DNA of 12,675 nucleotides, from assembly GCA_017458025.1 (NCBI GenBank), contig JAFTGG010000072.1, forward strand, positions 1-12,675, given 5' to 3'. Below, piece by piece: positions 5,100 through 7,365 of this stretch (position 1 is its first letter; each line of letters starts with the position of its first letter). The position numbers and the translations under genes are program-made. The notes below the pieces were generated by a model. The model did not search any database and was not told where the DNA came from. It saw only the letters and a program-made list of their open reading frames with translations. Source of the stretch: Oscillospiraceae bacterium. GTDB taxonomy: Bacteria > Bacillota > Clostridia > Oscillospirales > Oscillospiraceae.

Positions 5100-5582
5100 A
5101 TGCCATTAAATATTGATTGGCAGCAGATTTTGCTGCACCTGCTCAACTTCGCCATTCTCGCGGGCGGGCTGTATTTTCTGCTCTATAAGCCCGTGAAGAG
5201 CTTTATGGCGAAGCGCGAGCAGCACTATCAGGAGCTCGACGAGCAGGCCAGGCAGGACCGCGCGGAAGCGGCGGCGATGCGCAAGGCCGCGCAGGAGAAG
5301 CTCAACGCCACCGAGGACGAGATCGTCCACATGCGCACGCACGCGAGCGACGAGATCGAGGCCGAGAAGCAGCGTCTGCTCGGCGACGCGCGCGCGCAGG
5401 CGCGCCGTATCCTCGAAACCGCCGGCAAGACGGCGGAGATGCGCTCGAAGAAGGCGCTCGCCGACTCCAACGACGAGATCCGCGCCATCGCGCTCGAAGC
5501 GGTGCAGAAGCTCCTGATCAACGACGGCAACGCCCTCGACAAGTTCCTGGACGCGGCGGAAAGCGAGACGCGCGATGAGTAA
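5100..5582 (+). CDS. atpF: F1Fo ATP synthase subunit b
   Basis: The peripheral-stalk subunit that links membrane subunit a to the top of F1. Of 160 residues (family norm about 155-175), an N-terminal membrane helix at about 8-28 (LLHLLNFAILAGGLYFLLY, then KPVK) is followed by a long charged Glu/Arg/Ala-rich coiled coil to about 135 and a C-terminal helix that in known enzymes binds the delta C-terminal domain. Start ATG 5100 follows AAAGGAG with 7 bases of spacing. The stop overlaps the next ATG by 8 bases (ATGAGTAA), so b and the delta-alpha fusion are translationally coupled. Unlike the mycobacterial b-delta fusion, no delta sequence is attached to this b. One b gene implies a b homodimer. 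Confidence 0.95.
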   Translation: MPLNIDWQQILLHLLNFAILAGGLYFLLYKPVKSFMAKREQHYQELDEQARQDRAEAAAMRKAAQEKLNATEDEIVHMRTHASDEIEAEKQRLLGDARAQARRILETAGKTAEMRSKKALADSNDEIRAIALEAVQKLLINDGNALDKFLDAAESETRDE

Positions 5583-7365
5583 CGAACAGAAGACCCTTCG
5601 CGCATACATCTACAGCGACACCGAGCCGACGCCGGAGCAATCCGGCCGTCTGGAGTCGTTTCTGGAGCGCACCTACGGCGAGGTGATCCCGCTGCGCTGG
5701 ACGCGGACGCCCGCCATTCACGACGGCTTCCGCCTCGAGGTCGGCCCCGACGTGTACGACTGGACGCTCGAAGGCCGCGTGCGGCAGTTCCAATCCCGCG
5801 TCAACCGCATGGATTCGGGCATGAACAGCTTCGTGCCCCTCATGCGCAAGGTCGTCGCCGGCTTCTCCCCCGCCGTCGTGCGCGAGGAGAAGGGCGAGAC
5901 CGTTTTCGTCGGCGACGAGATCGCGCGCGTGCGCGGCCTGCCCGGTGTGCAGTACGGCGAGGTCGTCGAGTTTGCGGGAGGCGTGCACGGCATGGTGCAG
6001 GACCTGCGCGACGACAGCGTGGGCTGTATTCTGTTCGGCGCGGAGGGCGACATCACCGAGGGCAGCATCGTCAAGCGCACGGGCCGCACGGCGGGCATGC
6101 CCGTCGGCATCAAGTTCCTCGGCCGCGTCGTGAACGCGCTCGGCGAGCCCATCGACGGCAAGGGCCCCATCGAGCACGACGACTTCCGCCCCATCGAGGT
6201 CGCCGCGCCCGGCATCATGGACCGTCAGGCGGTCAACGAGCCGATGGAGACGGGCATTTTGTCCATCGACTCGATGTTCCCCATCGGCCGCGGCCAGCGC
6301 GAGCTGATCATCGGCGACCGCCAGACCGGAAAGACCGCCATCGCCATCGACACCATCATCAACCAGAACAAGCGCAACGTCATCTGCATTTACGTCGCCA
6401 TCGGCCAGAAGGCCAGCTCCGTCGCCCAGATCGCGGCGAATCTGGAGGCCCACGGCGCGCTGGAGCACACGATCATCGTCAGCGCCAGCGCCAGCGACCC
6501 CGCGGCGGAGCAGTACATCGCGCCCTACGCCGCGACCGCGCTGGGCGAGCACTTCATGCACACGGGCCGCGACGTGTTGATCGTCTACGACGACCTGAGC
6601 AAGCACGCCATCGCGTACCGCGCGCTCTCGCTGCTGCTCGAACGCTCCCCGGGCCGCGAGGCGTTCCCCGGCGACGTGTTCTATCTGCACTCCCGCCTGC
6701 TCGAACGCTCGGCGCATTTGTCCGACGAGCTGGGCGGCGGCAGCATGACCGCGCTGCCCATCATCGAAACGCAGGCGGGCGACGTGTCCGCCTATATCCC
6801 GACCAACGTCATTTCCATCACCGACGGCCAGATTTATCTGGAGAGCAACCTGTTTTTCTCCGGCCAGCGTCCGGCGGTGAACGTGGGCCTCTCCGTCAGC
6901 CGTGTCGGCGGCGCGGCGCAGACCAAGGCGATGAAGCAGAGCGCCGGTTCGCTCCGCATCGACCTCGCGCAGTTCCGCGAGATGGAGGCGTTCACGCAGT
7001 TCTCCAGCGACCTCGACGAGGTCACGAAGCGCCAGCTCGTCTACGGCCAGGGCCTGATGCGCCTGCTGCGGCAGGACCAGTACAAGCCGTTCTCGCAGCA
7101 CCGCATGGTCATTTTGCTGATCGCGGCGCTCAATCACACGATGGAGAACGTCCCCATCGACGACCTGCTGACCTATCGCGAGCGGCTGCTCGAACACGTC
7201 GAGGCGCAGCACGACCACATCTGCCGCCGCATCGACCGCAACGGCAAGCTGCTCGACCGCGACAAGGAGCTGCTGCTGGCCTCGGCGAAGGAGTTCGCCG
7301 AGCGTTGGCTGCGCCACGGCGGAGAGCTTGACGAGGGCGAGGAGGCTCCCGATGGCGAGCGCTAA
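5575..7365 (+). CDS. atpA: Delta C-terminal domain fused to F1Fo ATP synthase subunit alpha
   Basis: A 596-residue protein, against about 500-515 for alpha. From residue 83 it is an ordinary alpha subunit: N-terminal helix (83-105), beta-barrel GDEIARVRGL, Walker A GDRQTGKT (247-254), VYDDLSK, and the arginine-finger motif SR443VGG. Residues 8-76 resemble the C-terminal domain of delta (atpH/OSCP): a strand RAYIYSD, helix PEQSGRLESFLERTYG, then DGFRLEVGPDVYDWTLEGR. This keeps the G-x5-G-x2-V-x-D-x4-GR pattern of E. coli delta (GVIIRAGDMVIDGSVRGR). The fusion is in frame without a break. ATGs at 5809 and 5821 (residues 79, 83) could start a plain alpha but lack convincing ribosome sites. It lies where atpH-atpA normally lie, and the delta N-terminal domain is absent. 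Alpha identity is certain; the delta domain is inferred from motif pattern and synteny. Confidence 0.95.
   Translation: MSNEQKTLRAYIYSDTEPTPEQSGRLESFLERTYGEVIPLRWTRTPAIHDGFRLEVGPDVYDWTLEGRVRQFQSRVNRMDSGMNSFVPLMRKVVAGFSPAVVREEKGETVFVGDEIARVRGLPGVQYGEVVEFAGGVHGMVQDLRDDSVGCILFGAEGDITEGSIVKRTGRTAGMPVGIKFLGRVVNALGEPIDGKGPIEHDDFRPIEVAAPGIMDRQAVNEPMETGILSIDSMFPIGRGQRELIIGDRQTGKTAIAIDTIINQNKRNVICIYVAIGQKASSVAQIAANLEAHGALEHTIIVSASASDPAAEQYIAPYAATALGEHFMHTGRDVLIVYDDLSKHAIAYRALSLLLERSPGREAFPGDVFYLHSRLLERSAHLSDELGGGSMTALPIIETQAGDVSAYIPTNVISITDGQIYLESNLFFSGQRPAVNVGLSVSRVGGAAQTKAMKQSAGSLRIDLAQFREMEAFTQFSSDLDEVTKRQLVYGQGLMRLLRQDQYKPFSQHRMVILLIAALNHTMENVPIDDLLTYRERLLEHVEAQHDHICRRIDRNGKLLDRDKELLLASAKEFAERWLRHGGELDEGEEAPDGER
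5596..5802 (+). other. Delta (OSCP) C-terminal-like domain within the atpA fusion
   Basis: Codes for residues 8-76 of the fusion protein. In F1Fo the delta C-terminal domain binds the C-terminal ends of the b dimer, while the delta N-terminal domain (missing here) binds the alpha N-termini. Composition and codon use look like those of the neighbours, so this does not look like recently imported DNA. A profile search (Pfam OSCP, PF00213) with residues 1-82 would be decisive. Confidence 0.8.

Follow-up and report, generated by a model that had tools for sequence, protein, structure and literature searches.

The 12,675-nucleotide stretch of DNA analysed here in full (hereafter the window; contig JAFTGG010000072.1 of the Oscillospiraceae bacterium assembly GCA_017458025.1) carries an F-type ATP synthase operon in which one gene encodes both a part of the delta subunit and the alpha subunit. 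This gene is a natural fusion of a delta subunit devoid of its N-terminal domain (delta-N) to alpha. The fused N-terminal domain is almost certainly the C-terminal domain of delta (delta-C). By analogy with an engineered enzyme of the same design, we suggest, with a probability of roughly 0.58, that the ATP synthase of the window carries more than one peripheral stalk.

Identity of the fused domain

Based on the reading frames and Pfam matches, the genes follow the order a-c-b-(dC-alpha)-gamma-beta-epsilon, where dC is delta-C, with no gene between b and alpha. The start of the fusion gene overlaps the b stop by 8 bases (Table 1). As a preliminary description of this DNA had stated, the fusion stands at the atpH-atpA position, directly after b and before gamma, and both of its parts lie in one uninterrupted frame of 596 codons. 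That description also proposed profile and fold comparisons of the N-terminus, and both agreed with its claim. The PF00213 (OSCP) profile matched residues 2–74, scoring 31.5 bits with residues 1–83 alone and 26.2 bits with the whole chain (cut-off 22.3), and the fold of the N-terminus was that of the delta C-domain. The match was restricted to the C-terminal half of PF00213 (positions 97–170 of 172). The N-terminal helical domain of delta is absent from the fusion, also as claimed before: profile matches began only at 93–98 of 172, and a delta-N model gave no match. TIGR01145, which describes the whole delta subunit, was aligned at 98–169 of 172 and did not reach its cut-off (17.6 versus 57.5 bits). 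Against a model of the family, of whose 19 rows the window itself is one, the fusion scored 108 bits. When residues 1–83 alone were searched against PDB sequences, delta and b-delta chains appeared at E values of 0.096–1.3, amid unrelated chains of similar E value; the domain was identified by profile and fold, and not by this search.

The chain exceeds the TIGR00962 (F-type alpha) cut-off and contains the Walker A and SRVGG segments (Table 1), which are defining features of the F-type alpha family. The assembly (2.0 Mb, 282 contigs, 89% complete) yielded no other F-type alpha above this cut-off; its four further TIGR00962 matches belonged to the beta subunit of the operon and to V-type and flagellar ATPase subunits, the latter judged from lengths and places only. 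A second OSCP match was not found in this assembly either, leaving the fusion as the sole one, and four genomes of the same genus (G004, G006, G011 and G012; 96–100% complete) had one OSCP match each.

The preliminary description knew of no characterised delta-alpha fusion. This was mistaken, since passages of Ueno et al. 2025 (PMC12229609) report one that was built and solved, and name natural cases (Acidaminococcus fermentans and the UniProt entries G4Q3K6 and A0A1I2C5T3). The design has thus been known as a kind since 2025, and the window is a further member, not the first. The engineered Bacillus PS3 FoF1 of the same passages (PDB 9jc1) resembles the window in its order of delta C-domain, short linker and alpha, in the loss of delta-N and in having no separate delta; a sequence alignment of the two fusions continues across the junction, offset by a net 4 residues. 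Unlike the window, the PS3 fusion is man-made, works with the b and a subunits of PS3 and had its epsilon C-terminal domain removed, whereas the window epsilon retains the helical domain (PF00401). The A. fermentans protein, compared by description only, likewise has delta joined to alpha with delta-N missing, and the two UniProt entries are said in those passages to be similar.

Among other systems, V-ATPase subunit E and flagellar FliH exist as stand-alone chains and are not joined to the ATPase. The mycobacterial b-delta protein retains delta-N; in the window, b is separate (5100–5582) and delta-C is joined to alpha. The N-ATPases share with the window the lack of a separate delta, and residues 12–76 of the fusion aligned to positions 181–245 of the N-ATPase b model TIGR03321 (E 0.087). 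However, N-ATPases carry the delta-C-like domain on b and not on alpha, and their operon order, which begins with beta-epsilon according to passages of PMC4154653 and PMC5706428 (the beginning from the former), is not that of the window. The N-ATPase alpha model TIGR03324 (alt_F1F0) also did not reach its cut-off (616.9 versus 750.5 bits). Passages of PMC4154653 and PMC10656485 contained no delta/alpha fusion.

Distribution, architectures and history

A PF00213 match was present in 35 of 60 genomes (the window's own included), and in 23 of the 60 it lay inside a frame of 579 or more codons without a stop, alpha then being seen in the same frame. Wider surveys used a profile of delta-C and the alpha N-terminus (A1), counting rows that kept to a single frame, were free of stops and started in the delta part. 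In the order, at least 50 of 295 genomes had such a row (147 with any match; one of the 50, G176, has a frame of 521), and in the class 29 of 245 (a match in 106; three of the 29, which start at position 36–42, were settled by later classification). In the phylum the count was at least 24 of 398 (268 with a match), including G752, with a frame of 246, and G594, in which no delta-C was detected. The three samples overlap, and the order and phylum surveys may miss further divergent cases. Nine named records carry the fusion (four Oscillospiraceae, two uncultured Clostridia, one Ruminococcaceae, one uncultured Oscillibacter and one Candidatus Acutalibacter), several of them being the same genomes as numbered ones, with identical frames.

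We classified 136 operons, which were chosen from matches, so that their shares are not frequencies; G176 and G752 stand outside this classification, as does G002, which is fused. The plain delta-C/alpha form accounted for 87 operons. In nine, a longer delta region (a faint N-domain plus the C-domain) is fused to alpha, and two have two delta-C copies in tandem before alpha. In ten operons, b, delta-C and alpha form one chain with a membrane helix, each with an additional separate b upstream. No paper on b-delta-C-alpha or tandem fusions was among the matches listed in the open-licence PMC literature. An ordinary separate delta was present in 26 operons. One operon (G594, L213) was unclear, with about 95 residues before the alpha core, and was left out of the fused count. 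The remaining operon (G051) has a free delta-C gene ahead of a separate alpha: L094, at about 6008–6226, encodes some 72 codons between b and alpha, without an N-domain. A separate b lies just upstream in 136/136 operons; a separate delta or delta-C accompanies all 26 canonical operons and the one free form, and none of the 108 fused operons or the unclear one. Genome G025 has two F-type operons (contigs C10 and C50; L085 and L086), one with a separate delta and one fused.

Trees were built on alpha cores without the fused part, and no root was inferred. The b-delta-C-alpha rows form one clade (10/10 in the FastTree tree; 7/7 sampled in the careful tree, support 100/98), which groups with enzymes having a separate delta. 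A single origin of all fusions was rejected: with 63 of the 136 alpha cores, forcing all 45 fused rows into one clade costs 235 log units (approximately unbiased test, p 0.0007). A fused clade could also be broken up by gene transfer from one species to another or by a later split of the fusion. Acquisition, loss or transfer of the fused state therefore happened more than once; because the tree is unrooted, gain and loss look alike. On the alpha trees, L150 (G474), which has a separate delta, lies within a group of fused enzymes, a possible case of splitting or replacement.

The fusion coincides with a change in the N-terminal helix of alpha, which in the canonical enzyme contacts delta (passages of PMC12229609). 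The EIS motif was present there in 24 of the 26 operons with a separate delta and in one of the 87 delta-C/alpha fusions; it was absent from the longer-delta (0/9), tandem (0/2) and b-delta-C-alpha (0/10) forms, and from G051 and G594 (0/1 each). Among phylogenetically independent pairs, 5 of 6 followed this pattern, with one tie and none opposite (median p 0.0625). The nine longer-delta fusions scored 10.5–18.5 bits with the delta-N model, compared with 31.8–139.2 bits for 25 of the 26 separate deltas, eight of which trained the model; the other, G041, scored below 20. The EIS pattern and the faint N-domain match both fit a release from the old contact with delta-N.

Number of peripheral stalks

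Passages of Ueno et al. 2025 (PMC12229609) describe delta-N as lying on the threefold axis, where it limits the enzyme to one stalk. Removing delta-N and joining the C-domain to alpha gave enzymes in which stalks and a subunits averaged about two and numbered at most three each, with an H+/ATP of 5.8 compared with 3.0. In the window, the b-binding C-domain of delta likewise forms the N-terminus of alpha, making the dock for b a part of alpha, with the separate atpF product presumably as its partner. Since the dock is on alpha, each F1 would have three delta C-domains, provided that the fusion gene is the only source of alpha and no short alpha is made. With delta-N gone from the symmetry axis, each alpha could, as in engineered PS3, dock a b dimer. 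The enzyme would then have two or three peripheral stalks, each of which could recruit an a subunit; the H+ per ATP (c times a per turn) would rise, and ATP could be made at a low proton-motive force. The earlier idea that the fusion replaces the docking role of delta-N holds in part and is better read as a release from the one-stalk limit. The stoichiometry question raised with it was the right one; its wording, three b-binding domains for one b dimer, presupposes a single stalk; the engineered enzyme bound as many as three b dimers and as many a subunits.

Several points weigh against this reading. The stoichiometry of the natural cases is carried over from the engineered enzyme, which itself lost stalks, three-stalk particles being extremely few in cryo-EM (passages of PMC12229609). 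The longer-delta operons (9/136) retain a faint N-domain, three of which cannot share one axis, and the tandem forms (2/136) would give six delta C-domains per F1, beyond a count of three stalks. The EIS association draws on only six independent pairs, and internal initiation could produce short alpha in the window, where the Shine-Dalgarno match of the fusion's own ATG (3 bases) is no better than the inner ones.

It is unlikely, though still a substantial alternative, that three delta C-domains are made and only one docks, owing to the room beside the c ring or a limited supply of b and a, the fusion then being a tether with two idle domains. Every ATP synthase so far has a single a subunit, and no FoF1 with several has been identified, according to passages of Ueno et al. 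(PMC12229609), in which the engineered equivalent nevertheless forms double- and triple-stalk enzymes. The tandem delta-C of G016 and G032 suggests a tolerance for surplus domains. Against this alternative, an idle copy in any of the ten genomes with b-delta-C-alpha would mean an idle membrane anchor. That all this reflects chance resemblance, an annotation artefact or an assembly error is hardly credible: the OSCP score is modest and the draft assembly comprises 282 contigs at 89% completeness, but the N-terminus has the delta fold, the family model that includes the window gives 108 bits, and 108 of the 136 operons picked from matches are fused, named records among them.

Short alpha might also arise by initiation at an inner codon or by proteolytic cleavage close to the junction, with F1 assembled from one fused and two plain alpha subunits and one stalk retained, which we consider improbable. 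In the window, inner ATGs occur at residues 79, 83 and 90 (Shine-Dalgarno matches of 0, 3 and 3 bases) and GTGs at residues 60 and 69 (5 and 4 bases). Across the 108 fused genes, a junction ATG with a match of at least 4 bases occurs in 14, against 2 and 3 at two control positions, and with GTG and TTG added in 32, against 24 and 25; the pair G564/G856 is the best case. However, 23 of the 26 separate alpha genes satisfy this ATG threshold where they begin, and the 14 junction cases are dispersed, most of them having a 4-base match and lying within the alpha helix. Among 18 other A1 rows, Met79 is common to one (L099) and Met83 to none. Overall, the signal across the fused genes is weak and scattered.

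With more than one stalk as the preferred reading for the window, the b-delta-C-alpha clade is the strongest natural hint of a multi-stalk plan, as every alpha brings its own dock, stalk and anchor. A wider proposal, which we hold tentatively and at slightly under even odds, is that multi-stalk F-type ATP synthases may form a natural class that is widespread in Clostridia and elsewhere in the phylum, and that arose from the one-stalk plan on more than one occasion through relocation of the b-dock to alpha. One clade, with its b-delta-C-alpha chain, would have three built-in membrane-anchored stalks as in V-ATPases, and the window would belong to the simpler form, having at most three a subunits and a higher H+/ATP.

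Other genes of the operon and significance

The remaining subunits are encoded around the fusion (Table 1). Subunit a has a repeated N-terminal segment, residues 40–85 aligning with 179–224 (50% identity over 46 residues, E 2e-13), and subunit a of G004 likewise gave two profile matches. Subunit c has a signal-peptide-like hydrophobic segment (residues 12–30) ahead of its two helices. In L103 (G011), an additional c-like open reading frame lies upstream of subunit a.

Table 1. Features of the window, with loci of the rarer fusion forms in other genomes
Feature	Position	Strand	Remarks
atpB, subunit a	3411..4583	+	390 aa; PF00119 56.2 bits
atpE, subunit c	4610..4984	+	PF00137 54.2 bits; start may be ATG at 4625
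atpF, separate b	5100..5582	+	160 aa; PF00430 62.9 bits; one hydrophobic helix, residues 10-28
atpA-type delta-C/alpha fusion	5575..7365	+	single ATG frame, 596 aa; TIGR00962 730.9 bits (cut-off 484.45)
delta/OSCP C-terminal domain	5578..5796	+	fusion residues 2-74
linker and alpha N-terminal helix	5797..5859	+	residues 75-95; helix 88-95 in model; without EIS motif of canonical alpha
alpha core	5830..7305	+	residues 86-577, TIGR00962; Walker A GDRQTGKT at 247, SRVGG at 442
atpG, gamma	7352..8236	+	PF00231 265.7 bits; ATG at 7352 chosen by us over TTG at 7328
atpD, beta	8254..9642	+	TIGR01039 781.4 bits
atpC, epsilon	9669..10079	+	PF02823 and PF00401
tandem delta-C/alpha	L090, 6044-8065		G032
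tandem delta-C/alpha	L095, 1498-3510		G016
b-delta-C-alpha			G021 (L089), G054 (L092), G055 (L093), G095 (L168), G124 (L173), G126 (L181), G151 (L178), G199 (L177), G296 (L180), G317 (L183)

In the usual F-type enzyme, with its single stalk and single a subunit, the c ring determines the ion cost of ATP. If the proposal is true, a natural multi-stalk enzyme would be a second way to set this cost. Specialists would be interested in how far the fusion has spread, in the repeated changes and most of all in the b-delta-C-alpha chains, which are the sharpest test object because three anchored stalks would then be hard to avoid. The window and its relatives offer natural material for the test called for in passages of Ueno et al. 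(PMC12229609), and fermenting bacteria could, if the proposal holds, draw ATP from small ion gradients.
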